Below, in pieces: positions 26,616 through 40,017 of a DNA stretch of 64,000 nt. The stretch lies in the NCBI RefSeq assembly GCF_000384075.1, contig NZ_KB913025.1:4596187-4660186 (forward strand), given 5' to 3'. The notes below the pieces were generated by a model. It saw only the letters and a program-made list of their open reading frames with translations. It made no database searches and was not told the DNA's origin. The position numbers and the translations under genes are program-made. This DNA comes from Methylovulum miyakonense HT12 (GTDB lineage: Bacteria; Pseudomonadota; Gammaproteobacteria; Methylococcales; Methylomonadaceae). Numbering within the stretch: the stretch's first letter is position 1; the number at the start of each line of letters is the position of its first letter.

Positions 26616-27294
26616 CGGGGAAGGACTTGGATACCATTCAGTTTTAAGAAAAGGGGCGCATGGGTTTTATCTACTCCTCAGACTTTTCGTCTCAGCCCGC
26701 ATACAAACTCTGATCATGCGCTTTGATATAGTGCTAGCTAAGCAATATATCATTGCTTGGAGAGATACAAGGGCACCGTCTCAGTGTCTGGTTTGAGCCG
26801 CTCTGAAACCTTCGGCTATACCACGTTTGCTAATGTCCAAAGGCTACTTTGACTATTTTGCATTCCAGCATCGTAACGGAATCTGCAAAACTGGGCGGAA
26901 CGTTAGCCCAAGCCTCCATCAGCATGAGGGCCCTCTGTCTAAATTCGCGAAACCTATTGCCACGCATCGCACTGGTAACGCTGGCAGCGTGCGTTGCGGA
27001 CTGCCAAAACCGTACCGGATCGTGCCGCCGCCGTCGCAATACCATCTGGGATATAAATGCGGGCAGGCGCACCGTCAGCCCAACGCAACTGCCGGATGGG
27101 TGGCATAACAGCGGGCTGCACTGACTAACTGTTTGATGGTGACTGAGGTTTCCATCCGCCCGTTTTACCAAAAGGCCTCAAAACACGTATTGGGCCTTTA
27201 TCTTCCCCATCAGTTTTGCAAATCCACATCGCATTGCTCCAAGCGCAGCAATTCTTTTGGTTCATTGCTTCAAAAGCGGCGATTTTTCCTCCGC
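26616..27294. other. Gene-free, probably decayed stretch between the IS110 remnant and the porin promoter
   Basis: Open frames on both strands here (up to 113 codons) have erratic composition and no recognisable motif. I take them as non-coding. A small palindrome AAGCAAT ... ATTGCTT occurs near 26738-26756. The stretch probably consists of degraded mobile or displaced DNA. Confidence 0.45.
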
Positions 27295-27312
27295 ATTGCC
27301 GCTAGTGCGGCA
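27295..27312. promoter_or_regulatory. Candidate activator site (UAS) upstream of the porin gene
   Basis: The sequence ATTGCCGCTAGTGCGGCA shares 16 of 18 positions with the centre of the palindrome at 29890-29915 (ATTGCCGCTACAGCGGCA). It ends 50 bases upstream of the sigma-54 promoter at 27362, a usual distance for an enhancer-binding activator. The nearest encoded activator is the SfnR-like protein at 38824. The assignment is an inference from repetition and placement. Confidence 0.6.
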
Positions 27313-27361
27313 TCAATAATAAAAACAGATAAATTGTCATTAATAAACAATTAGTTATAAA

Positions 27362-27377
27362 TGGCATAAGCTTTGCT
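27362..27377 (+). promoter_or_regulatory. Sigma-54 (-24/-12) promoter of the FadL-type porin gene
   Basis: TGGCATAAGCTTTGCT matches the sigma-54 consensus TGGCACG-N4-TTGCW at all but two positions, with the essential GG and GC ten bases apart. The predicted transcript start is near 27388, about 90 bases before the porin ATG. The candidate activator site at 27295-27312 lies upstream. Confidence 0.75.
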
Positions 27378-27480
27378 CTGAAAGGGTTCAGGCGCAACGC
27401 GTTTGTCTTTCCTAGAATCCCCTTAGGGCAAACCCAACGGACGTCGCCGATATCTGAAAATATTTTAATTGGAGCTTCAA

Positions 27481-28848
27481 ATGTATAGAGAATTGTTTCC
27501 TCCCAAAAATTACCGGCGTATAAATTTATGGCGATTGCAGAAGGTGTCGTTATTGGCGCTAGCGAGTACGGTGTCGCCTGGTGTATTGGCCCTGAATACC
27601 GGAACGGATCTGAACCTGTCTTTAAAACCTATTGCCGGCGGTATGGCCGGCGCGGCTTATACCCGACCGCAAGAAGTTTCCGCCGCATTGTTTGGCAACC
27701 CGGCCACCTTGACCCAGTTTAAAGGCTTTAATTTTGGCTTGGGCGCGGCGCTTCTTGAACCTGTAGTCGACAATTATCAAAGCAACAACGGATTTACTAA
27801 CCATTCCCCCAGCTTGGCGCAGAATTACATTGCGCCGGATGTCGCACTCAGCGGAGAAGTCTTGCCCGGCTTTGTGGTGGGCGGCGGTGTCGCGCTTGAT
27901 TCGGGCTTAGGCGCGGATTACCGCACCCATCCCATCAATGGCGGGGCCGGGCTTGGACTGGGTGGCGCCGGTGCCGGTGGCGCGGCGACATTACCTTTGG
28001 TTGTGGAATTGCTGTCATTTAGTGCCAACGTGGGGGCGGCTTATGAAGTGACGCCAGATTTGTCATTAGGGGCGGCTTTGACGGTAGGGTTTGGTTTGGG
28101 CCAATTCGGAACTACCGGGAATACGAGCGGGCTCGGCGGGTTGTCGGGTGATTTTGGGGGGACTACGTCCAGCGTACATAATATTTCGCTCCGTGGTTCA
28201 TTGGGTGCAACTTACCAGCTCACCGATGATGTGAAGCTAGGTGTTTCGGTCAAGTCCCCTTTGCAATACCACTACCATAACGTATTGTCGACTACAGTAG
28301 GCGGCGGTCAGGAATACCAAAGCGTAAAGCTCGATCAACCCTTGGAGGTCACCTGGGGCATAGCAGCCAATGCAACGCCTAACTTGCTATTGGAGGCGGA
28401 TGTCGCCTGGAAAAACTGGTCGCAATCTTCACTGTATAAGGACGTCTATGATGACCAGTTCCTGGCTATGCTGGGTGGCCAATATAGCCTTGGAAAATGG
28501 CAGCTCCGCTCGGGTTACAGTTATGCCTCGGAGATACTTCGCAATAATCCGAACGGCACTGTTGGCGGCTTTTCAGGACTGGGGACGCTGCCGCTTGATA
28601 CCAATGTCCCCGGGGTTCTTAACAGCAATGATTTGATTAAGGTCGTACAAACGACTTTAGGCCCGGTCGTCTGGGAGCATACCGCCACGGCAGGTCTAGG
28701 ATATGCCTTTACACCCCAGTTTAGGCTGGATGCGTTTGCCGCCTATGCTTTTGAAGGCACAGCAAGCCGCAGCACACTGGCTTTGGGAGATTATCATGTC
28801 ACCAGTAGCGAATGGGCCTTGGGTGCGGGCGCGAATTTCAAATTTTAA
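27481..28848 (+). CDS. OmpP1/FadL-family outer-membrane channel
   Basis: FadL-type proteins are 14-strand barrels that pass hydrophobic compounds through the outer membrane by lateral diffusion. The 455-residue protein has a long signal region (KVSLLALASTVSPGVLAL), then the family start LKPIAGGMAGAAYTRPQEVSAALFGNPATLTQFKG (read in pieces) with the NPA motif. Amphipathic strands alternate through to a C-terminal aromatic WALGAGANFKF, as needed for barrel assembly. I start at the ATG at 27481 with GGAG six bases upstream. It is preceded by a sigma-54 promoter and stands next to sulfone-use genes, so its substrate may be an organosulfur compound (inference). Confidence 0.85.
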   Translation: MYRELFPPKNYRRINLWRLQKVSLLALASTVSPGVLALNTGTDLNLSLKPIAGGMAGAAYTRPQEVSAALFGNPATLTQFKGFNFGLGAALLEPVVDNYQSNNGFTNHSPSLAQNYIAPDVALSGEVLPGFVVGGGVALDSGLGADYRTHPINGGAGLGLGGAGAGGAATLPLVVELLSFSANVGAAYEVTPDLSLGAALTVGFGLGQFGTTGNTSGLGGLSGDFGGTTSSVHNISLRGSLGATYQLTDDVKLGVSVKSPLQYHYHNVLSTTVGGGQEYQSVKLDQPLEVTWGIAANATPNLLLEADVAWKNWSQSSLYKDVYDDQFLAMLGGQYSLGKWQLRSGYSYASEILRNNPNGTVGGFSGLGTLPLDTNVPGVLNSNDLIKVVQTTLGPVVWEHTATAGLGYAFTPQFRLDAFAAYAFEGTASRSTLALGDYHVTSSEWALGAGANFKF

Positions 28849-28857
28849 CGGAGGGAT

Positions 28858-28887
28858 GCCGAATAATCCGCGCTAGGATTATTCGGC
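28858..28887. terminator. Strong hairpin between the converging porin and amidohydrolase genes
   Basis: A perfect 12-base stem, GCCGAATAATCC and its complement, closes a 6-base loop (GCGCTA) ten bases after the porin stop. A clear T-run is lacking on either side. The position between convergent genes suggests a shared transcription end. Confidence 0.65.
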
Positions 28888-28903
28888 AAATCCGGTCTAC
28901 CAG

Positions 28904-29751
28904 TTAAACCCGCAATAAGTGTTTCGCATTTTGATATAACACCCGATCCAACACCTCCTCGTGCAAACCGAGCCGTAGAAAGTCCTCTAGCGTTTGCCCC
29001 ATCGCCCGGAACGGGTACGAGCTGCCAAACAGCAGTTGCCCCTTCATAAAACCGTTGGCCGCTTCCACATACAAGCTTCCGCCCGGCAGAAAAATATACA
29101 TGTCCGGGACGACGTAAACGTTTTCATAGCGAAACGCGACGCCGATCATTTCGTTCACATACGGATAAAAACCGTGGTAGCAGACGATAGGCAAACCTGA
29201 AAAAGCCCTGGCCACCTTGCCGACGGCGACCGGATTGGCATATTCCAAATTCGGCGTGGTCGGCCCTGACATTAAAAACACCGGCACATCCAGTTGTTTG
29301 CAGGCGTCATAAATCGGGTAGAGCGACGGATCATCGGCCTGAATGGGCGGCGCGCCGAATCCGGGTTCTATGTTAATTCCCCTCAATCCCAGCGTGTTCA
29401 CGGCCTTTTCAATTTCTTTGGCGATGCCACGGCTATCCAGCGCTTGCGGGTTGACCGAGGCGATGCCGATCAGCTCCGGGTGCGGCGCGGTAATGTCCCG
29501 GAGGTTTCGTTAGGGATTGTGATGTCGGGCGTATCGCGGCCCACGACGACCGCATGGCGGATACCCACCTCGCGGATTTCCTCGATAAACCCATCCAGGG
29601 TATGCGAACGGACAAAGTGATCGTCCTGTTTGGAGCCCAAGCGGCGGTTAAGCCATTTGGCGGTTTCATATCCGGGGGTTGCCGGCGTTGCGCCATAAAA
29701 ATCATGTAGAAACGCAGGTCGGCTGCGCATATCGATTATCGGTCTGGACAT
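28904..29751 (-). pseudogene. Amidohydrolase-2-type protein, split by a single-base frameshift
   Basis: The first 70 or so codons (from the ATG at 29751, MSRPIIDMRSRPAFLHDFYG) run to TPDITIPNET and then into a premature stop at about 29470. The remainder continues in another frame as LRDITAPHPELIGIASVNP, NTLGLRGINIEPGFGAPPIQ, YHGFYPYVNE, and ends FGSSYPFRAMGQ...NAKHLLRV at 28904. Adding one C near 29510 rejoins the two into about 282 residues. The usual metal ligands HxH are replaced (DMRSR), so the family member may be non-metal or inactive even when intact. A sigma-54 promoter match lies 73 bases upstream. It may be a recent null mutation or a sequencing error. Confidence 0.78.
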
Positions 29752-29823
29752 CTTGTCAATTCTCGGCTTTGGCTAATGTATTGAAGCGATCTTCGCTTCG
29801 GCTGGTGTGCTAGCCACAGAAGC

Positions 29824-29839
29824 AGCAGATATTGTGCCA
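29824..29839 (-). promoter_or_regulatory. Sigma-54 promoter of the amidohydrolase gene (divergent pair, left)
   Basis: On the minus strand TGGCACAATATCTGCT fits TGGCACG-N4-TTGCW with two mismatches and correct GG-GC spacing. The start of the amidohydrolase lies 73 bases downstream. It faces away from the match at 29994, with a palindrome between them. Confidence 0.7.
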
Positions 29840-29889
29840 AATGGCCAGGAGCGGCCTGAATCCTGGGGTTGCCAGATGCTTGTCCAACC

Positions 29890-29915
29890 ACGATTGCCGC
29901 TACAGCGGCAATCGT
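29890..29915. promoter_or_regulatory. 26-base palindrome between divergent sigma-54 promoters, candidate activator site
   Basis: The arms ACGATTGCCGCT and AGCGGCAATCGT are exact complements with a 2-base centre. The site lies 50 bases behind the left promoter and about 79 bases behind the right one. Its core recurs upstream of the porin promoter (27295-27312). That placement is what a shared upstream activator site for an enhancer-binding protein such as the SfnR-like regulator would need. Confidence 0.68.
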
Positions 29916-29993
29916 TGTAATCCGCTGCTGCAACAACGGCATCCAAACCGATAAGGCCATCATTAATCATTTTAAAAACAATGAGTTGAAAGT

Positions 29994-30009
29994 TGGCATG
30001 GTCGGTGCT
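29994..30009 (+). promoter_or_regulatory. Sigma-54 promoter of the organosulfur operon (divergent pair, right)
   Basis: TGGCATGGTCGGTGCT matches TGGCACG-N4-TTGCW with two mismatches; the GG and GC elements are intact and ten bases apart. The predicted start of transcription is near 30020, giving a leader of about 57 bases before the FMN reductase ATG at 30077. Confidence 0.68.
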
Positions 30010-30076: not shown

Positions 30077-30655
30077 ATGAGTACATTAAAAGTCGTGGTT
30101 GTTTCAGGCAATCTAGGGCTACCGTCTAAGACGCTCGTATTGGCCGGGCAAATCGTCGATGCAATCAAGCAGCAAGCTTACCAACAAGCTTGTATTGAAG
30201 TAATAACCCACAGCTTGGCTGATCTGAGCCCGGTTTTCGGACTTGCCCGTCATCCTGGGGAGCTGGGCGATATTGGCAAAGCCGTGCTGGATTCTATCGG
30301 CTCGGCCGACATCCTGGTAGCGGTCACACCAGTTTACAAGGGTTCCTACACCGGCCTATTCAAGCATGTGTTTGATTTTCTGGATGTGAAGGCGCTGAAC
30401 GAACTGCCGGTGATTCTTGGCGCCACTGGCGGCGGGGAAAAGCATGCCCTGATTATCGAACATCAACTGCGGCCGCTGTTTGGCTTCTTCGGTGCGCAAA
30501 CCGTCCCTTCCGGCATCTACGCCACCGAACAGAACTATGACGGCTCACGCTTTAGCGATGCCATCGTCAATGAACGTATCCATGCGGCAGCGCGCCAAGC
30601 CGTTGCGGCGGCGCTTATCCGGGCGGATCAAACCCAATTATCTGAAGTAGCTTAA
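30077..30655 (+). CDS. NADPH-dependent FMN reductase (MsuE/SsuE/SfnF type)
   Basis: This flavin reductase supplies FMNH2 to the two-component monooxygenases downstream. I start at MSTLKVVVVSGNLGLPSKTL, giving 192 residues. The flavodoxin-like phosphate loop SGNLGLPSKT, then ADILVAVTPVYKGSYTGLFKHVFDFLD and LGATGGGEKHALIIEHQLRPLFGFFGAQTVPSGIYA are family hallmarks. It is the first gene of the plus-strand organosulfur operon, behind a sigma-54 promoter, and ten bases ahead of an acyl-CoA-dehydrogenase-like gene. Confidence 0.9.
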   Translation: MSTLKVVVVSGNLGLPSKTLVLAGQIVDAIKQQAYQQACIEVITHSLADLSPVFGLARHPGELGDIGKAVLDSIGSADILVAVTPVYKGSYTGLFKHVFDFLDVKALNELPVILGATGGGEKHALIIEHQLRPLFGFFGAQTVPSGIYATEQNYDGSRFSDAIVNERIHAAARQAVAAALIRADQTQLSEVA

Positions 30656-30665
30656 GGAGAGCATC

Positions 30666-31847
30666 ATGTCTGTACACGATTACGAAAAAATCCGTTCCGA
30701 AATTCGCGCCCTGGTTGACGAGGTCATCCGGCCTAATGCCGAACAAACCGACCAGGGCGTTTTCCCGCGGGAGAACCTTGAAGCCTTGGGCCGGGCGGGC
30801 TGGAATGGCGTGCTGATTCCGAAGGAATACGGCGGCCTGGGTCTGGACCATGTCGCCTTTTCGATCGTGGCCGAAGAAATCGGCCGCGCCTGCGCCTCCA
30901 CCGGCCTGGTTTATGTGATGCACACCGGTGCGGCGCAGACCATCAACTTATTCGGCAACCACGACCAAAAAGAACGTTGGCTGAAGCCTGCCCGCGACGG
31001 TTTGATCGGCACCTATTCGACCAGCGAAAAAGCCTCGGGCGGGCACTGGTGGTTCAACTTCAGCGAAGCTTCCCGTGGCAGCGACAATAACTATCTGCTC
31101 AATGCGGAAAAATCCTTTACCACCAGCGCCGGGCAAGCGGATTACTACATTTTTCAAACCCGTTCGCCGGGCGCCAAAGGCCCTACCGATATTAGCTTTT
31201 TCATCGTCGATTCCAAACTGGAGGGCATCACGCATGGCACCTGGGAAGCGCTCGGGGTGCGCGGCAACCACAGCGGGCCGATCACCTACAAAGAGGTGAA
31301 TGTGAAAAGCATCGACCGCCTGGGCGACGAAGGCCAGGGTAAAGACATTGTTTACCACGGTGTGTCCCCCGTGTATCTGGTTGGTCTGGGCTCTGTTTGG
31401 CACGGTGTGGCCAGGGCGGCACTGGAAAAAGCCGCCGACCACCTGACTGGCACCATCCACCGCGATTTCAACCGCAAACTGTCCGACTACCAAGTGCTGC
31501 GCCAGCAATTGGGCGAGTCCAAGGTGTTGGTCGAAAGCCTGCGCCCCTGGCAGCACGAGCTGGCGCGGCAATTGGACCAATTGCAGGCCGCCAGCCAGCC
31601 GCAAGGGCAAATCCTGCTGCCATTGACCGAATTCAAGGTGCATGCGGCGGAAGTCGCCAATATCTCGGCGCGCAACGCCCTGGATGTCAGCGGCGGTTAC
31701 GGTTACAAGAAAGGCCCGATCGAACGCATCTTCCGTGATGCCCGTGCCGGCATCGGTATGGGGCCATCGAACAATATCGCCCGCGAATGGATTGGTAAGG
31801 CACTGGTGGGATTGCCGCTGGAGCTGTTCGAGGCCGGCGGAGAATAG
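30666..31847 (+). CDS. Acyl-CoA-dehydrogenase-like flavoprotein of the sulfur operon
   Basis: The 393-residue protein has the acyl-CoA dehydrogenase fold: helical N-domain (RAGWNGVLIPKEYGGLGLDH), beta middle (GTYSTSEKASGG, SFFIVDSKLEG), and C-terminal helices ending DVSGGYGYKKGPIERIFRDA. Related flavoproteins in sulfur-starvation clusters (SfnB, SfnC, MsuC, DszC groups) act as FMNH2-dependent oxygenases, not CoA dehydrogenases. The substrate here is not known. A GGAG ribosome site precedes the ATG. Gene order with an FMN reductase and SfnG supports an oxygenase role. Confidence 0.82.
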   Translation: MSVHDYEKIRSEIRALVDEVIRPNAEQTDQGVFPRENLEALGRAGWNGVLIPKEYGGLGLDHVAFSIVAEEIGRACASTGLVYVMHTGAAQTINLFGNHDQKERWLKPARDGLIGTYSTSEKASGGHWWFNFSEASRGSDNNYLLNAEKSFTTSAGQADYYIFQTRSPGAKGPTDISFFIVDSKLEGITHGTWEALGVRGNHSGPITYKEVNVKSIDRLGDEGQGKDIVYHGVSPVYLVGLGSVWHGVARAALEKAADHLTGTIHRDFNRKLSDYQVLRQQLGESKVLVESLRPWQHELARQLDQLQAASQPQGQILLPLTEFKVHAAEVANISARNALDVSGGYGYKKGPIERIFRDARAGIGMGPSNNIAREWIGKALVGLPLELFEAGGE

Positions 31848-31965: not shown

Positions 31966-32508
31966 ATGTCACAGAAAGATTTGAAAGCCGCATTAGAAAA
32001 CACCATTGCCGCCTTGCAAGAAAATCCGGCGAGCGCCCGTCTGGTTTTTAAGGCAAAGACCCGCTGGCTCGATGGCGTGCGTTGCGCCGCCCAAGTGCGG
32101 GATTTTCCGCCGCTGATCATTGACGAACCCCCGGAATTGGGTGGGGGTGACGCGGGTGCAAACCCCGTCGAGCTGATCCTGGCCGCGCTCGGCACCTGCC
32201 AGGAAATCGTCTACGCAGCGTACGCCGCCGTGCTGGGCATCCCTTTGGAGGCGGTCGAGGTGAGCGCCAAGGGCTATCTGGATCTGCATGGCCTGTTCGG
32301 CTTGAAAGAGGTGCACTCCGGTTTCCAGAAAATCAGTTTTGAAACCACATTGAAGAGCCCTGCGGCGCCGGAAACGATCAGCCAACTGGTTGCGGCCGTG
32401 GAAGCGCACTGCCCCGTGCTCGATACCTTGACCCGGCCAGTCGAGGTGGCCGGTACGGTCACGCTCAATGGAACACCGCTTAACTTCCCCGCACGCCATG
32501 CCGCATAA
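31966..32508 (+). CDS. OsmC-family protein
   Basis: The 180-residue protein has the OsmC pattern: DEPPELGGGDAGANPVELIL, AALGTCQEIVYAAYA with the active cysteine, and a second cysteine in EAHCPVLDTLTRP. OsmC proteins are thiol-dependent peroxidases or redox proteins. I start at the ATG at 31966 (MSQKDLKAAL) with GGAA upstream; ATG 31954 is possible. It lies within the organosulfur operon, so handling of reactive sulfur or peroxide by-products of the flavin oxygenases is a fair inference. Confidence 0.88.
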   Translation: MSQKDLKAALENTIAALQENPASARLVFKAKTRWLDGVRCAAQVRDFPPLIIDEPPELGGGDAGANPVELILAALGTCQEIVYAAYAAVLGIPLEAVEVSAKGYLDLHGLFGLKEVHSGFQKISFETTLKSPAAPETISQLVAAVEAHCPVLDTLTRPVEVAGTVTLNGTPLNFPARHAA

Positions 32509-32519
32509 GGAAAAATCAA

Positions 32520-33626
32520 ATGAGCCAATCACATCAAAGCAACAACCCAATCAAGTTTGCCTATTGGGTGCCCAACGTCAGTGGCGGCCTGCTTATCAGT
32601 AAAATCGAGCAACGCACCAGTTGGGATATTGACTATAACCGCAAGCTTGCGCAAATAGCCGAGCAAAGCGGCTTTGACTACGCCCTCAGCCAGATCCGTT
32701 TCACCGCGGGTTACGGGGCGGAATACCAGCACGAATCGGTGTCTTTCTCCCATGCCTTGTTGGCGGCGACCCAGAAACTACGGGTTATTGCGGCTATTTT
32801 GCCGGGGCCTTGGCACCCGGCTGTCGTCGCCAAGCAAATTGCTACCATTGACCACCTGACGGGAGGCCGCATCGCCGTCAACATCGTCAGTGGTTGGTTT
32901 AAAACTGAATTTACCGCGATCGGCGAGCCGTGGCTGGAGCATGACGAACGTTATCGTCGTTCAGAAGAATTCATCCGCGCACTGAAAGGCATTTGGACGC
33001 AGGACGATTTCAGCTTTTCCGGCGATTTCTACCGTTTCCACAATTTCACATTAAAGCCTAAGCCTTTACAACAACCGCATCCGGAAATATTTCAGGGCGG
33101 TAGCTCCCGGGCGGCGCGCGATATGGCGGCCCGGGTCTCGGATTGGTACTTCACTAACGGCAATACGCTGGAAGGCATTAAAGCGCAAGTTGACGATATC
33201 CGCGCTAAGGCTGCCAAAGGCGGCCATTCGGTCAAGATTGGCATCAATGCTTTCGTTATAGCCCGAAATACCGAAGCTGAAGCCCAAGCGGTGTTGAATG
33301 AAATTATTGACAAAGCAGACACGAAAGCGGTCAACGCTTTTGGACATGAGGCCAAGCAAGCAGGAAAAGCATCCCCGGAAGGTGACGGTAATTGGGCCAA
33401 GTCAACATTCGAAGATTTGGTGCAATATAACGACGGCTTTAAAACCAATCTGATCGGGACACCCAGACAAATTGCCGAGCGTATTGTGGCGTTAAAAGCG
33501 GTGGGTGTGGACTTGGTCCTGACGGGCTTTTTACATTTCCAGGAAGAAGTCGAATATTTCGGGAAGCATGTTTTGCCCTTAGTACGCGAACTGGAATCAC
33601 GGCAAACTGACAAAGTGGCTGCATAA
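32520..33626 (+). CDS. sfnG: FMNH2-dependent dimethylsulfone monooxygenase
   Basis: SfnG cleaves dimethylsulfone to methanesulfinate and formaldehyde with FMNH2 and oxygen. The 368-residue luciferase-like (LLM) protein carries the SfnG-specific KFAYWVPNVSGGLLISKIEQ and IAEQSGFDYALSQIRFTAGY, then LPGPWHPAVVAKQIATIDHL, GRIAVNIVSGWFKTEF, HDERYRRSEEFI and IFQGGSSRAARDMAARVSDW. Its stop overlaps the next start (TAATG). The FMN reductase at the head of the operon is the likely electron partner. Confidence 0.94.
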   Translation: MSQSHQSNNPIKFAYWVPNVSGGLLISKIEQRTSWDIDYNRKLAQIAEQSGFDYALSQIRFTAGYGAEYQHESVSFSHALLAATQKLRVIAAILPGPWHPAVVAKQIATIDHLTGGRIAVNIVSGWFKTEFTAIGEPWLEHDERYRRSEEFIRALKGIWTQDDFSFSGDFYRFHNFTLKPKPLQQPHPEIFQGGSSRAARDMAARVSDWYFTNGNTLEGIKAQVDDIRAKAAKGGHSVKIGINAFVIARNTEAEAQAVLNEIIDKADTKAVNAFGHEAKQAGKASPEGDGNWAKSTFEDLVQYNDGFKTNLIGTPRQIAERIVALKAVGVDLVLTGFLHFQEEVEYFGKHVLPLVRELESRQTDKVAA

Positions 33627-34819
33627 TGGGCGTGGTTAATCCTATCAAACAGGCCCAATTAAAGGCCCAATCGTTGTTCGGCAAGGCCGAACAATTAGCG
33701 GCGGAGTTTGCGGCCACCGCAGTGGAACGGGATAAACGTGGCGGCACGGCCAAAAATGAACGCGACAGCCTGCGTAAAAGCGGCCTATTAAACCTCATCA
33801 TTCCGGTTGAATATGGTGGGCACGGCCTAGATTGGCACGATACGCTACAGATTGTGCGTATTATTTCCAGGACCGATAGTTCGGTAGGACATTTGTTTGG
33901 TTTCCAGCATTTGTTGTTGGCGACTATCCGGCTGTTCGGGGGCCAATGGCCGCATTATTACCGTGAAACGGTTAAAAATAACTGGTTTTGGGGAAACACC
34001 CTCAATCCTCTCGATACTCGCGCCAGAATCAGTGCTGACGGCAAAGACTGGTTGGTGCATGGCACCAAAAGCTTTTGTTCCGGCGCCACGGATTCCGATC
34101 ACTTGATCGTATCGGCCTTGTCGGAGACTGACGGCAAATTAGTCATAGCAGCCATTCCAAGTAATCGCACAGGCATCCAGATCCATTCGGATTGGGACAA
34201 TATGGGGCAACGCCAGACCGACAGCGGTACTGTGGATTTTCATGGGGTGCGGATTTATGACCATGAAATTTTACGTGAGCCTGGCCCTCTAGGTAGTGTG
34301 TTTGCCACCTTGCGTCCGCTGCTTGCACAGCTGATCCTAACCAATATTTACTTAGGCATAGGCGAAGGCGCTTTGGCGGAAGCGATAGGTTATACCCGCA
34401 GCCAGTCGCGGGCTTGGTTTTTGTCCGGCGTGGAAAGTGCGACCCGCGACCCTTATGTGCTCAAAAAGTACGGTGAATTTTGGGTTGACCTTAATGCGGC
34501 CGCACTGTCGACCGATCATGCCGCCAGTTTACTGGACGCCGCTTGGCGTCAGGAAAATGCACTCACCGAGGCGGAGCGCGGCAGTGTCGCTGTTGCGAGC
34601 GCGACGGCCAAAGTCTTGGCCACCCGGGCCGGGTTAGACGTGACACAACGCTTGTTTGAAGTCACCGGCGCACGGGCCACCAGCGCCAAAGGAGGTTTTG
34701 ACCGCTATTGGCGCAATCTGAGAACCCATTCGCTGCATGATCCGGTGGATTATAAGCTGCTTGATCTTGGCGAATGGGTGTTGAATGCCAAATTACCCGC
34801 GCCGAGTTTTTACTCCTAA
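33626..34819 (+). CDS. SfnB/MsuC/DszC-type flavin monooxygenase (sulfur acquisition)
   Basis: The 397-residue acyl-CoA-dehydrogenase-fold protein belongs with DszC-like sulfur-acquisition oxidoreductases: LLNLIIPVEYGGHGLDWHDT, RTDSSVGHLFGFQHLLLATI, KNNWFWGNTLNPLDTRA, FCSGATDSDHLIVSA and GFDRYWRNLRTHSLHDPVDY. The Y-W-R-N-x-R-T-H-x-H-D-P segment is characteristic. If MsuC-like, it would oxidise methanesulfinate to methanesulfonate, joining SfnG to SsuD. If SfnB-like, its exact reaction is unknown. The sequence alone does not decide. It is coupled to sfnG by a TAATG overlap. Confidence 0.88.
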   Translation: MGVVNPIKQAQLKAQSLFGKAEQLAAEFAATAVERDKRGGTAKNERDSLRKSGLLNLIIPVEYGGHGLDWHDTLQIVRIISRTDSSVGHLFGFQHLLLATIRLFGGQWPHYYRETVKNNWFWGNTLNPLDTRARISADGKDWLVHGTKSFCSGATDSDHLIVSALSETDGKLVIAAIPSNRTGIQIHSDWDNMGQRQTDSGTVDFHGVRIYDHEILREPGPLGSVFATLRPLLAQLILTNIYLGIGEGALAEAIGYTRSQSRAWFLSGVESATRDPYVLKKYGEFWVDLNAAALSTDHAASLLDAAWRQENALTEAERGSVAVASATAKVLATRAGLDVTQRLFEVTGARATSAKGGFDRYWRNLRTHSLHDPVDYKLLDLGEWVLNAKLPAPSFYS

Positions 34820-34826
34820 GGACTCT

Positions 34827-36065
34827 ATGATGAATTACGACACAATAGAAACGGCGCTGGAAGCCATCCGCAATGGCGGCTTCGTGGTGGTGGCCGACGA
34901 TGCCGGCCGGGAAAACGAAGGCGATTTAATCATCGCGGCCGAAAAAATCACGCCCGAACGCATGGCCTTTCTGGTACGGCACAGCAGCGGCGTCGTTTGC
35001 GTCGCCCTGCCGGGCGAGCGCGTCGATGCGTTGCATCTGGAGCCGATGGTCGCGAACAACACCGATGCCCATGGCACGGCATTTACGGTTTCGGTGGACT
35101 TGAACAAAGGCACCAGCACCGGCATTTCTGCAGCAGACCGCAGCGCCACCCTCCGTGCCCTGGCGAACCCTGCCTGCACCGCCGACAATTTTGCCCGCCC
35201 AGGCCATGTGTTCCCCTTACGCGCCAGACAGCACGGGGTGTTGGCGCGGCCGGGCCACACTGAAGCGGCCAGCGATTTGGCGAGCTTGGCCGGACTGTAT
35301 CCGGCCGGCGTGCTGTGCGAAATCGTGAATGACGATGGCAGCATGACCCGTGGCGGGGCATTGCAGGCATTTGCCAGAAAACATAACTTACCGTTTATCA
35401 GTATTGCCGATCTTATTGCTTACCGCCGCCGTAATGAATTATTGGTTGAGCACGTCTCAGAAGCACGGATACCCACAGCTATTGGGGTTTTCACCGCCCA
35501 TGTTTACCGTTCCGTGCTAGACGGTTCAGAGCATTTGGCATTGGTCAAAGGCCAAGTGGCGGGACAACAAAATGTTTTGGTGCGGGTGCACTCCGAATGT
35601 TTAACAGGTGATGTGCTTGATTCTCTGCGTTGCGATTGCGGCAACCAACTCAAAATGGCGTTGGCAAAAATCGAACAGGCGGGCAGCGGGGTTTTGGTTT
35701 ACTTGCGCGGGCATGAAGGCCGCGGCATCGGTTTGGCGCACAAGCTGCGCGCCTATGAATTGCAGGATCAGGGCCGGGACACCGTACAAGCCAATTTGGA
35801 CTTGGGTTTGCCTATCGATTCCCGCAGCTATGATGTCGGCGCCCAAATACTAACCGATCTGGGCGTGACGACTCTACGATTGATGAGCAACAACCCGGCT
35901 AAGTTCACCGAGTTGGCCGGATACCGGTTAAAAATTGTCGGGCGTGTACCGCTAGAACCCGTCCCCAATCGGGAGAATATCTCCTATTTACGGACTAAAT
36001 CCGAGAAGCTAGGGCATTTGCTCAATCTGAACAATCTTCCTTGGGAAGCCCTAAGTGCCGAATGA
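34827..36065 (+). CDS. ribBA: Bifunctional riboflavin enzyme RibBA
   Basis: The N-terminal half is 3,4-dihydroxy-2-butanone 4-phosphate synthase: [60 protein letters not shown]. The C-terminal half is GTP cyclohydrolase [22 protein letters not shown] with the zinc cysteines, [20 protein letters not shown] and [10 protein letters not shown]. Both active sites look intact, over 412 residues. The start is the first of two adjacent ATGs; AAGGA lies just upstream. Its place between two flavin-dependent oxygenase genes suggests it raises flavin supply when the operon is on. Confidence 0.93.
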
Positions 36066-36105
36066 GGCTGGCGAGCACACTAATACTGAATTTGGAGACA
36101 ATAAA

Positions 36106-37248
36106 GTGAATGTTTTCTGGTTTTTACCGACACATGGTGACGGCCGTTACCTGGGCTCGGCCCAAGGCGCACGCGAAGTGAGTTTGCACTATTTGCGCCA
36201 AATAGCCCAGGCTGCGGATGCTTTGGGTTATGGCGGGGTCCTGATTCCTACCGGCGTCACCTGTGAGGATCCCTGGGTCGCCGCCGCCTCGTTGATTGAA
36301 TCCACCGAGAATCTACGGTTTTTGGTGGCGGTCCGGCCCGGCTTGACCTCGCCCACGGTGGCGGCACGCATGGCGGCTACTCTGGACCGCTTTTCCGGCG
36401 GGCGCTTGCTGGTCAATGTCGTTGCCGGCGGGGATCCGGTTGAGCTGGCCGGCGACGGCTTGTTCCTGGCGCATGATGAGCGTTATGCCTTGGCCGCCGA
36501 GTTTTTGACCGTCTGGCAGCGCTTATTGGCGGGTGAAACCGTCAGTTTTGCCGGCAAGCATATCCGGGTCGATAACGCGAAACTGGCCTTTCCGCCTGCG
36601 CAGACGCCCAGCCTGCCGTTATATTTTGGCGGCTCATCGCCAGCCGCCCATCATTTGGCCGCCGAGTATATCGACCACTATCTGAGCTGGGGCGAGCCGG
36701 TGCCGGCCGTGGCGCAAAAAATCGCCGATATGCAAGCTCGCGCCAGGCTGACCGGGCGGGCCGTGCGTTACGGCCTGCGCATACACATCATCGTTCGGGA
36801 AACCGAAGCCGAAGCGTGGGCGGCGGCCAATGCGCTGATCCGTCATGTCGGCGATGACGCGATTGCCGCCGCGCAGCACGCCTATGCCCGCTCGGATTCC
36901 GAGGGGCAGCGGCGGATGAACAGCCTGCACCGAGGCTCCCGGCAAAACCTCGAAATCGCCCCCAACTTATGGGCCGGTGTCGGTTTAGTCCGGGGCGGCG
37001 CAGGGACTGCGTTGGTCGGCGACCCGCAAACCGTTGCCAAACGCTTGCAGGAATATGCCGATCTCGGCATCGAAACTTTTGTGCTCTCCGGTTACCCGCA
37101 CCTCGAAGAAGCCTACCGCGTGGCCGAATTGCTGTTCCCGTTGTTGCCGGTCGCAAAAGCTGGCAAAAAGACACGCGCCAAACCGGTGTTCCATTTAAGC
37201 CCTGTGGGCGATACCGGAAAAGTCGAGTTGCAAGCCAAGGCCGGGTGA
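36106..37248 (+). CDS. ssuD: FMNH2-dependent alkanesulfonate monooxygenase (SsuD/MsuD type)
   Basis: SsuD desulfonates alkanesulfonates to sulfite and an aldehyde. I start at a GTG ([18 protein letters not shown]) with GGAG eight bases upstream. This gives 380 residues, close to the family length; an open GTG 17 codons earlier has no such site. Motifs: [86 protein letters not shown] and [20 protein letters not shown]. It could act as a methanesulfonate monooxygenase (MsuD) in this cluster. No ssuABC transporter is nearby. Confidence 0.93.
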
Positions 37249-37358: not shown

Positions 37359-38630
37359 ATGAAACTAGAAACAATAGCCATACACGGTGGCTACAGCCCC
37401 GATCCAACCACCAAAGCCGTGGCCGTGCCCATTTATCAGACCACGTCTTACGCCTTTGACGATACCCAGCATGGCGCCGATCTATTTGACCTGAAAGTGG
37501 CCGGCAATATCTATACCCGCATCATGAACCCGACCACCGACGTACTGGAAAAACGCGTGGCCGAATTGGAAGGCGGATTGGCAGGGCTGGCACTGGCCTC
37601 CGGCATGGCCGCAATTACCTACGCGATCATGACCATCGCCGAGGCGGGCGACAACATCGTTTCCGCCGCCACGCTGTACGGCGGCACCTATAACCTCTTC
37701 GCCCATACCCTACCTCAATACGGCATCAACGTGCGTTTTGCCAATTATCGCGATCCGGATGCGTTCGAGGCATTGGTTGACGACAAAACCAAAGCCATTT
37801 TCTGCGAATCGGTCGGCAACCCATTGGGCAATATTACCGATTTTGAACGGTTGGCCGAGATCGCCCATCGCCATGGCGTACCGCTAATTGTCGATAACAC
37901 CGTGCCATCGCCGTATTTGTGCCGACCGATCGAACACGGTGCCGATATCGTCGTGCATTCGCTCACCAAATATCTGGGCGGCCACGGCAACAGCATCGGC
38001 GGGGTGATTGTTGATAGCGGCAAATTCCCCTGGGCTGAACATAAAGAACGCTTCCGTCGTCTGAACGAACCGGATGTTTCCTATCACGGCGTGGTGTATA
38101 CCGAAGCGCTGGGGCCTGCCGCTTATATCGGCCGGGCGCGGGTGGTGCCGTTGCGCAATACCGGCGCGGCCATTTCGCCGTTCAATTCGTTCTTGATCTT
38201 GCAAGGCATTGAAACCCTGGCGTTGCGCATGGATAGAATCTGCGGGAACACCGTCAAAGTCGCGCAATATCTGCAAAGCCACAGTAAAGTTGCTTGGGTG
38301 AATTACGCAGGATTGGATGACCATGAAGACAAAGCGCTGGTTGACAAATACATGGGCGGACGCGCCTCCGGTATCCTCACCTTTGGCTTGAAAGGGGGCC
38401 GCAAGGCCGGTGGGCACTTTCAGGATGCCTTAAAACTGTTCACCCGGCTCGTGAATATCGGCGATGCCAAATCGCTGGCTTGTCATCCGGCCTCCACCAC
38501 ACATCGGCAATTGTCGCCTGAGGAGCTGGTTAAGGCGGGGGTCACCGAAGATATGGTGCGTTTATCCATCGGGATAGAACACATCGACGATATTGTCGCG
38601 GATCTGGAACAGGCGCTCGAGGCGGCCTGA
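37359..38630 (+). CDS. metY: O-acetylhomoserine sulfhydrylase (aminocarboxypropyltransferase)
   Basis: MetY makes homocysteine directly from O-acetylhomoserine and sulfide, bypassing cysteine. The 423-residue PLP enzyme of the Cys/Met metabolism family begins ETIAIHGGYSPDPTTKAVAV. It has PIYQTTSYAFDDTQHGADLF, IYTRIMNPTTDVLEKRVAEL, VDNTVPSPYLCRPIEHGADI and the PLP lysine in VVHSLTKYLGGHGNSIGGVI, and ends GDAKSLACHPASTTHRQLS. The start is ATG 37359; an upstream extension overlaps ssuD and is not family-like. It closes the route from sulfone sulfur to methionine, given a sulfite reductase elsewhere. Confidence 0.94.
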   Translation: MKLETIAIHGGYSPDPTTKAVAVPIYQTTSYAFDDTQHGADLFDLKVAGNIYTRIMNPTTDVLEKRVAELEGGLAGLALASGMAAITYAIMTIAEAGDNIVSAATLYGGTYNLFAHTLPQYGINVRFANYRDPDAFEALVDDKTKAIFCESVGNPLGNITDFERLAEIAHRHGVPLIVDNTVPSPYLCRPIEHGADIVVHSLTKYLGGHGNSIGGVIVDSGKFPWAEHKERFRRLNEPDVSYHGVVYTEALGPAAYIGRARVVPLRNTGAAISPFNSFLILQGIETLALRMDRICGNTVKVAQYLQSHSKVAWVNYAGLDDHEDKALVDKYMGGRASGILTFGLKGGRKAGGHFQDALKLFTRLVNIGDAKSLACHPASTTHRQLSPEELVKAGVTEDMVRLSIGIEHIDDIVADLEQALEAA

Positions 38631-38823: not shown

Positions 38824-40017
38824 ATGTTTATACTTATGCATTTACTTGCTTTTCCTAATCCATCTGAGATGGCCCTCTCAATTCGAGCATCAGCCCTCGT
38901 TTTCGAAGATCCAAAATCCAAAGAGCTACTGGACAGAATCAAACGTATTGCCCCTAGTGAGTTGAATGCCCTTATCATCGGCGAAACGGGTACCGGGAAA
39001 GAACTGGTCGCCCGCCACCTTCATGAACTTAGCGCAAAACGCAACGGGCCATTTTTAGCGGTTAATTGCTGTGCCTTATCGGAAACATTGATTGAGAGTG
39101 AGTTGTTTGGCCATGAAAAAGGGGCTTTTACCGGCGCGATGACGGCCAAACAGGGTTGGTTTGAAGCTGCTTCGGGCGGCACGCTTTTTCTGGATGAAAT
39201 TGGTGATTTACCTCAGTCGATGCAAGTAAAATTATTGCGGGTGTTGCAGGAACGGGAGGTGGTGCGGGTCGGTTCCCACAAGGCAATACCTATAGATGTG
39301 CGATTGATTGCGGCAACCAACGTCAAATTGGAAGAAGCGGTCATGGCCGGTCGGTTTCGTGAGGATTTGTACTACCGCCTGAATGTAGCCGCATTGAATT
39401 TATTGCCATTGCGGCAACGTACTGGGGATGTCTTGCCCTTAGCCGAGCATTTTCTAAAAGTGTATGGCCAGCGCTTTGGTTGTCCTGAAGCCACGATTGC
39501 CCCTGCCGCAAAACAAATTCTGTTAGCGCATACTTGGCCCGGTAACATTCGTGAATTGGAAAATGTTATCCATCACGCCTTATTGGTAACGCGTGACCTT
39601 ATCATTAAGCCAACGGATTTAAATCTCTCTCAATTGCCAAGTTTTCCTAAATCGGCAGACTCTGATGCTGGAGATTTTGAGAGATTAGTTAGTGCGTTTC
39701 AGGCTTTATGCGAACAAGAGTATCCTGATTTATATGCCCGTGCCGAACAAGCTTTGTTACAAGTCGCTTATAAGCATACCTACCGAAACCAATTGGCAAC
39801 AGCCAGATTGCTTGGGCTGAGCCGACATGTGGTTCGGGCCAGATTGATCCAGCACCATATCTTGACAGCAGGGGAGCCGGAAACTGACAAATCTCATCCT
39901 GTATTACCGCAGGGTGTAAGTGGGCCCCCCATTATTGTGCGTGACTTTTTTCCAAAGGATAATGACTACAAGGAACCTTTTTTAGCCGAAGCATCGCAAG
40001 AATGCTGGGGCTTTTGA
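38824..40017 (+). CDS. sfnR: Sigma-54-dependent activator, SfnR type (no N-terminal sensor domain)
   Basis: This bacterial enhancer-binding protein drives sigma-54 promoters. The 397-residue protein goes almost straight into the AAA+ domain: Walker A IIGETGTGKELVARHLHE, the sigma-54 contact loop ELFGHEKGAFTGA, Walker B GGTLFLDEIGDLP, and RFREDLYYRLNVAALNLLPL. It ends with a Fis-like helix-turn-helix (NQLATARLLGLSRHVVRARL). SfnR of Pseudomonas, which activates sfnFG under sulfate limitation, likewise lacks a receiver domain. The ATG at 38824 is chosen; ATGs at 38836 or 38869 are possible. It is the obvious candidate to act at the three sigma-54 promoters in this island. Confidence 0.88.
   Translation: MFILMHLLAFPNPSEMALSIRASALVFEDPKSKELLDRIKRIAPSELNALIIGETGTGKELVARHLHELSAKRNGPFLAVNCCALSETLIESELFGHEKGAFTGAMTAKQGWFEAASGGTLFLDEIGDLPQSMQVKLLRVLQEREVVRVGSHKAIPIDVRLIAATNVKLEEAVMAGRFREDLYYRLNVAALNLLPLRQRTGDVLPLAEHFLKVYGQRFGCPEATIAPAAKQILLAHTWPGNIRELENVIHHALLVTRDLIIKPTDLNLSQLPSFPKSADSDAGDFERLVSAFQALCEQEYPDLYARAEQALLQVAYKHTYRNQLATARLLGLSRHVVRARLIQHHILTAGEPETDKSHPVLPQGVSGPPIIVRDFFPKDNDYKEPFLAEASQECWGF

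Follow-up and report, generated by a model that had tools for sequence, protein, structure and literature searches.

A phased dyad array as the putative enhancer of an SfnR-type, sigma-54-dependent sulfur regulon in Methylovulum miyakonense

SfnR of Pseudomonas is reportedly, to go by paper titles, a sigma-54 activator needed for the use of dimethyl sulfone, and CysB is said, again in a title, to lie above it in that genus. The lack of a receiver domain is a defining trait of SfnR, whereas NtrC has a phosphorylated receiver domain and, at glnA, a double enhancer, in which two dyads separated by some three turns of the helix precede a sigma-54 promoter. Here we analyze a stretch of 64,000 nucleotides from the methanotroph Methylovulum miyakonense HT12 (positions 4,596,187–4,660,186 of one 4.69-Mb contig; hereafter the window), in which a palindrome recurs at sigma-54 promoters in a cluster of sulfone-use genes that also encodes an SfnR-type activator. 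In the excerpted text of PMC8234197, the SfnR regulon of Pseudomonas comprises the sfnFG, msuEDC, and sfnAB clusters and dimethyl sulfone transporters are yet uncharacterized; the extract of PMC12581299 gives a ∼260-fold rise of sfnG under sulfur starvation in P. aeruginosa. AauR of Pseudomonas putida, which serves acidic amino acid uptake, has two TTCGG-N4-CCGAA motifs upstream of a -24/-12 promoter (PMC7962211, in extract). SfnR control in Pseudomonas is the known part; what appears new, as read from sequence, is a phased multi-dyad enhancer, a clade-specific half-site, and the addition of a FadL-type channel to an SfnR-sigma-54 system. Our literature search returned no title or abstract opening describing this dyad or SfnR sites in methanotrophs, although such a paper may still exist, and no published Pseudomonas SfnR site was found in the literature surveyed, outside which the primary SfnR papers lie.

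The palindrome is very probably the enhancer site of the SfnR-type activator encoded at 38824–40017, and the three promoters that it precedes would form a local sulfur-starvation regulon. Both parts of this reading had been proposed in the original prediction, and both are supported by the association of dyads with -24/-12 elements, a blind scan, conserved distances with a 31-bp tandem, the identity of the target genes, and co-variation of half-sites with the activator's recognition helix. The sites in the window are as follows (dyads unstranded).

27235..27250: imperfect dyad TGCTCCAAGCGCAGCA with one mismatch to TGYYGC-N4-GCRRCA; its centre lies 119.5 bp before the fadL -24
27266..27281: imperfect dyad TGCTTCAAAAGCGGCG with two mismatches to TGYYGC-N4-GCRRCA; its centre lies 88.5 bp before the fadL -24
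27297..27312: exact SfnR-type dyad TGCCGCTAGTGCGGCA; its centre lies 57.5 bp before the fadL -24
27362..27377, plus strand: -24/-12 element TGGCATAAGCTTTGCT of the FadL-type gene, identical in the related locus L078
29824..29839, minus strand: -24/-12 element TGGCACAATATCTGCT preceding the amidohydrolase gene, with the same letters in L078
29895..29910: exact dyad TGCCGCTACAGCGGCA, within 29890–29915; the distance from its centre to the -24 is 63.5 bp on the minus strand and 91.5 bp on the plus strand
29926..29941: second dyad TGCTGCAACAACGGCA, one mismatch, spaced 31 bp from the dyad at 29895; the distance from its centre to the -24 is 60.5 bp on the plus strand and 94.5 bp on the minus strand
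29994..30009, plus strand: -24/-12 element TGGCATGGTCGGTGCT of the msuE operon, GG/GC retained in L078

An 18-mer, ATTGCCGCTANNGCGGCA, had been singled out and does occur exactly at two places (27295–27312 and 29893–29910), the second inside what was called a 26-base perfect palindrome at 29890–29915; its 12-base arms are indeed perfect, but its two-base centre, AC, is not self-complementary. We rejected the 18-mer as the functional and conserved unit because relatives retain TGCCGC-N4-GCGGCA or dialects of it, while the TA of the spacer and the AT at the flanks are variable. What is conserved is the core TGCCGC-N4-GCGGCA, generalized as TGYYGC-N4-GCRRCA. All three predicted sigma-54 promoters carry GG and GC at the right spacing, each with two mismatches to the pattern first used, and the anticipated distances of ∼50, ∼50, and ∼80 bases between palindrome and promoter measure 49, 53, and 83 between elements. 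The earlier picture of single sites was correct as far as the sites go; it overlooked weaker dyads in a 31-bp register, and the unit is a phased array. The fadL promoter has three dyads at 31-bp steps (57.5, 88.5, and 119.5 bp), and the divergent promoters share one pair almost symmetrically, since the dyads stand at 63.5/94.5 bp from the amidohydrolase element and at 60.5/91.5 bp from the msuE element. The weaker dyads recur in relatives: 29926–29941 is identical in L078, 27266–27281 has the same letters in L078 and one different letter in L202, and the L078 counterpart of 27235–27250, at equal distance, also has one mismatch.

The activator was predicted to lie in the same island, and the protein found there has the expected AAA+ domain, GAFTGA motif, and Fis-type helix-turn-helix.

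38824..40017, plus strand: SfnR-type sigma-54 activator, 397 amino acids, AAA+ domain (PF00158) from residue 26, GAFTGA at residue 100, Fis-type helix-turn-helix
39820..39849, plus strand: recognition helix S333-R-H335-V-V-R-A-R-L-I, with His335 (39826–39828) tracking base 4 of the half-site

It is 57–62% identical over ∼340 residues to Pseudomonas homologues, and the window resembles the Pseudomonas regulon in its -24/-12 promoters and its sfnG, msuE, and monooxygenase targets. It differs in the half-site (TGCCGC rather than TGTTGC), in having His rather than Asn in the recognition helix, in a C-terminal W-G-F/Y tail, and in a cluster that includes a FadL-type channel, an amidohydrolase, RibBA, and a sulfhydrylase. 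The dyads share with NtrC at glnA a tandem spacing of about three helical turns, but a domain search found no N-terminal receiver domain in the protein of 38824–40017, unlike NtrC. With AauR the locus has in common a dyad with a 4-bp centre and two motifs before a -24/-12 promoter, while half-site and genes are different. In a structural model the DNA-binding domain forms four helices, with a block-mean predicted local distance difference test score of 93–94 over residues 51–80 and His335 as model residue 72 in helix 71–80; a Foldseek search with this domain placed Fis at the top and DNA-binding domains of sigma-54 activators lower, none with E < 0.001. The window's genome also encodes sigma-54 itself (rpoN; TIGR02395, 497.8 bits). 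The tail was seen in all ten His-type activators, each ending in W-G-[FY] (window 39982–40014; L078, L202, L082, L206, L209, L210, L077, L204, and L203), and in none of the other SfnR-like proteins compared with them.

In the mechanism that we propose, SfnR dimers would bind TGCCGC-N4-GCGGCA dyads that repeat at 31 bp, about three turns of the helix, with centres ∼60 and ∼91 bp before the -24 element. Adjacent dimers on one face of the DNA could aid assembly of the AAA+ ring by which sigma-54 RNA polymerase is remodelled. One dyad pair would serve the divergent amidohydrolase and msuE promoters and the three-dyad array the FadL-type gene. The output, presumably signalled by sulfate limitation, would be a sulfur-starvation set of an outer-membrane channel, a flavin reductase, SfnG, other flavin monooxygenases, riboflavin supply, and a sulfhydrylase. 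Binding of SfnR to the window dyads is a strong inference from the comparisons below; because dyad sites follow the SfnR-type activator in relatives, the cluster is probably switched on as one unit for sulfur from sources such as dimethyl sulfone.

To place the dyads in a wider context, we used 80 named loci from an SfnG alignment scan, 79 of which, together with seven others, make up a set of 86 loci; L085, which shares a contig with L078, was dropped before the locus counts and the architecture, target, and IHF counts given below. The form TGCYGC-N4-GCRGCA has 39 copies in these loci, 33 of them 20–220 bp upstream of a -24/-12 match, in windows that cover ∼4% of bases. For TGYYGC-N4-GCRRCA the corresponding figures are 73 copies in 48 of the 86 loci and 65 of 73 located 20–250 bp upstream of a match. 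Six scrambled control patterns gave 0, 0, 0, 0, 2, and 0 upstream copies, and spacers of N2, N3, N5, N6, and N8 gave 0, 2, 0, 0, and 0. An N7 spacer stands out, with 12 of 24 copies near -24/-12 matches (seen in L093, L100, L133, and others), and part of this signal consists of CAG-like runs overlapping the second dyad. A blind search for 5-base inverted repeats, allowing spacers of 0–14, ranked TGTTG-N6 (50 of 60 upstream), TGCTG-N6 (34 of 45), and TGCCG-N6 (15 of 22) among its top six, the remaining three being shifted registers of the same dyad. In two Verrucomicrobium records (L123 and L134), sfnG likewise occurs together with an SfnR-like gene and with dyads that have -24/-12 matches, a possible case of cross-phylum transfer.

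On its own the -24/-12 pattern shows no enrichment: 95 matches with ≤3 mismatches were counted where 134 would be expected. Being rarer than expected, it was rejected as evidence in its own right; the unusual feature is the combination of dyad and -24/-12 element.

The architecture of the sites was examined in the sfnG loci plus 60 further regions around SfnG or SfnR, with promoters and dyads more than 62–70% alike (ungapped) thinned for the architecture, target, and IHF counts. The raw set holds 123 exact dyads, 94 with a promoter match and including overlapping loci of the same genomes; after thinning, 75 dyads have a -24/-12 match 35–160 bp downstream and 27 have none. Distances from dyad centre to the TGG of the element peak at 55–64 and 90–94 bp. 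A partner dyad (≥10 of 12 matches) lies 29–32 bp away from 35 of the 75, against 3.1 expected from all offsets, in a count where both members of a pair can score; shuffled flanks gave 0, and dyads lacking a promoter match 3 of 27. Among 16 aligned Methylococcales promoters (seven msuE and nine fadL, all picked for one exact dyad, with GG/GC kept as the scoring requires), 15 have a second dyad with ≤2 mismatches at ∼30 bp, L209 being the exception.

The first open reading frames (ORFs) after the 75 promoters are msuE (20), sfnG (16), DszC-like (13), FadL-like (7), SsuD (5), amidohydrolase (2), RibBA (1), and others (11), so 64 of 75 match genes of the window's cluster, an enrichment that is partly built in because the loci were chosen by SfnG or SfnR. 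This list counts L214 twice, one further promoter (L082) has no ORF by the rule used, and a few of the "other" class look like wrong-frame picks.

SfnR itself was searched for in 40 genomes, taken from 41 of the 80 named loci (L108 out), and a match at E ≤ 1e-90 is present in 38 of the 40 sfnG-bearing genomes, the best per genome being 56–83% identical, a markedly closer kinship than that of enhancer-binding proteins at large; four weak places of 60 were left out (G441, G451, G459, and G460). For the helix and tree sets we dropped L160 and L213, duplicates of L249 and L123, and L205 has no readable helix. An exact dyad is linked to 29 of the 67 SfnR-like genes with a readable helix.

The half-sites fall into three dialects, TGCCGC, TGCTGC, and TGTTGC, which co-vary with the recognition helix. 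Base 4 is C in 22 of 26 half-sites associated with His activators and T in 54 of 60 associated with Asn activators (Fisher's test 2e-11 on half-sites, which are not independent, and 5e-4 per gene); we prefer half-site counts because majority calls split ties arbitrarily, and two L216 genes share one dyad. Base 3 is T with Asn activators carrying [V/I]-T-R (the Pseudomonas type) and mainly C with other Asn activators, but C accompanies V-T-R in a His type (L077), so no one determinant accounts for base 3.

An AAA+ tree of 68 SfnR-like proteins, in which no other enhancer-binding proteins serve as outgroup, unites the ten His proteins in a single clade (96/86). It places the SfnRs of G007, G009, and G018, which belong to the window's genus, with a Methylophilus protein (L220, from the genome of L139). 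The genus is split by regulator lineage: the window's genome (G000) and its nearest relative for the cluster, G006 of the same genus, have His and TGCCGC, whereas G007, G009, and G018 have Asn and mainly TGCTGC, G009 and G018 also showing isolated TGCCGC half-sites. Since dyads within one genus divide with the regulator lineage, the dialect follows the regulator more than the host. The sfnG cluster is arranged differently in the same-genus genomes of L079, L080, and L081, whose Asn-type activator is nearest the Methylophilus protein; together these two features suggest that cluster and sites were exchanged together.

Genome-wide counts point to position as the special trait of the TGCCGC palindrome. 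Scatter across the genome apart from sigma-54 promoters had been named as an outcome that would count against the proposed site, and the 4.69-Mb genome holds just three exact copies of TGCCGC-N4-GCGGCA (one for the reversed control pattern), two of which precede the sigma-54 elements of the window; the third (C1:3024754) lies inside a 789-amino-acid ORF with no visible link to sulfur genes. In a sample of this genome and 60 relatives (61 in all), seven encode a full SfnG. Exact palindromes near SfnG make up two of three copies in the window's genome, two of three in G006, five of seven in G060, and one of four in G039, and in the other SfnG genomes (G007, G009, and G018) strong -24/-12 matches are preceded by the variant TGCYGC-N4-GCRGCA. 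A Pseudomonas check involving no choice of place gave 44 copies of TGTTGC-N4-GCAACA in 23 whole genomes against 7 for the reversed control; of 19 copies examined, one per genome with a match, 11 have a -24/-12 match 35–160 bp downstream, where chance coverage is 0–28%. A wider regulon in the window's own genome was sought in 30 loci, some of them overlapping and four of them in the window (L002–L004 and L012), and only weak combinations were seen outside the cluster (L007, L008, L019, and L163), imperfect dyads elsewhere having been searched less than exhaustively. SfnG itself occurs in 5 of 370 genomes sampled across the class and 13 of 237 of the window's own family.

Several observations weigh against the proposed SfnR enhancer. 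The exact dyad is absent from 38 of the 86 sfnG loci, and 38 of the 67 SfnR-like genes have none inside the stretch examined. The His type arises once on the AAA+ tree, so the co-variation amounts to about one evolutionary event. In G431 an Asn activator (L211) occurs together with a TGCCGC dyad at fadL (L088), a mismatch that a second activator absent from this draft assembly may explain; L214 has Asn with C at base 4, and mixed cases are L081 and L255. The -24/-12 elements were scored by a home-made scheme, which requires GG and GC. Finally, the genome-wide excess of the TGCCGC palindrome is mild and not restricted to SfnG genomes (83 against 55 for the control in 54 genomes lacking SfnG, and 27 against 14 in the seven with it).

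The missing dyads, together with the many sfnG loci where no SfnR gene was found within the stretch examined, would fit an arrangement in which CysB, placed above SfnR in Pseudomonas according to a paper title, or a further sulfur-starvation factor binds the dyads and SfnR merely resides in the cluster. We consider this unlikely, as half-site letters shift with the recognition helix of the linked SfnR, even inside one genus, and the dyads keep preferred distances from -24/-12 elements, which fits an enhancer-binding protein; the same dyad geometry, as TTCGG-N4-CCGAA, belongs to AauR, the closest parallel seen (PMC7962211, in extract). The sequence at 29890–29915 also folds strongly as RNA (-20.5 kcal/mol, z -4.67), as would be expected of an RNA or DNA hairpin such as a terminator between the divergent genes. 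That role is very improbable: what relatives conserve is a short 6-N4-6 dyad, which is often tandem and mixed in its half-sites, and the terminator reading was rejected because a terminator scan does not list the palindrome, which, lying upstream of both divergent promoters, is transcribed by neither. Least likely of all is a chance similarity or decayed repeat devoid of function; such dyads do occur at a background of a few per genome, but position, spacing, and half-sites recur in relatives of other families and in the Verrucomicrobium loci.

Sulfur-scavenging operons in methanotrophs, methylotrophs, Pseudomonas, and Verrucomicrobium loci can be searched for by a rule that combines the 16-bp dyad with its tandem spacing and the interval between it and the -24/-12 element. 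The comparison likewise provides a recognition code that can be tested for one family of enhancer-binding proteins. We also advance a joint proposal that we hold to be possible rather than probable: the choice between His and Asn in the third position of S-R-[H/N] would set base 4 (C or T), an aliphatic residue or Thr two positions on would help to set base 3 (C or T), the TGCCGC, TGCTGC, and TGTTGC dialects would separate co-resident sulfur regulons on 31-bp phased dyads, and the FadL-type channel would be the outer-membrane entry for dimethyl sulfone. The most useful new member of the regulon may be this porin, a candidate sulfone channel, whose placement in the regulon bears on a dimethyl sulfone transport described as uncharacterized in the excerpt of PMC8234197. 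SfnG and SsuD score above curated cut-offs and MsuE just below, so the predicted targets include sulfone- and sulfonate-use genes.

27481..28848, plus strand: FadL/OmpP1/TodX-type outer-membrane channel (Pfam PF03349, E = 3.6e-14)
28904..29751, minus strand: amidohydrolase-family gene, target of the minus-strand promoter (PF04909, E = 3.3e-19 on the 3' part)
30077..30655, plus strand: MsuE-type flavin mononucleotide (FMN) reductase, first gene of the operon (TIGR03566, 195.7 bits, just below the cut-off of 212.5)
30666..31847, plus strand: acyl-CoA-dehydrogenase-fold flavoprotein, FadE16-like (below NCBIfam curated cut-offs)
31966..32508, plus strand: OsmC-like protein (PF02566)
32520..33626, plus strand: SfnG, FMNH2-dependent dimethyl sulfone monooxygenase (TIGR04021, 636.4 bits, cut-off 382.95)
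33626..34819, plus strand: DszC/SfnB-like flavin monooxygenase (below NCBIfam curated cut-offs)
34830..36065, plus strand: RibBA-like riboflavin biosynthesis gene (named by eye from its translation; found in related clusters)
36055..37248, plus strand: SsuD-type alkanesulfonate monooxygenase (TIGR03565, 596 bits, above the cut-off of 518.2)
37359..38630, plus strand: O-acetylhomoserine sulfhydrylase (NF004757, 791.1 bits, above the cut-off of 790)

On comparison of frames, the amidohydrolase gene is broken about one-third into the gene in the window and open in L078, reflecting either recent loss or a sequencing error; its promoter is conserved despite the broken frame. Between dyad and -24 element, an element like the IHF consensus, CAA-N4-TT, was seen at window positions ∼27345–27360 and 29975–29992 and at some related promoters. 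The 80 bases before the -24 contain it in 21 of 72 promoters, compared with 90 of 993 box-less matches (p = 3e-6, with A+T content uncontrolled), which tentatively suggests an IHF-like element near these promoters.

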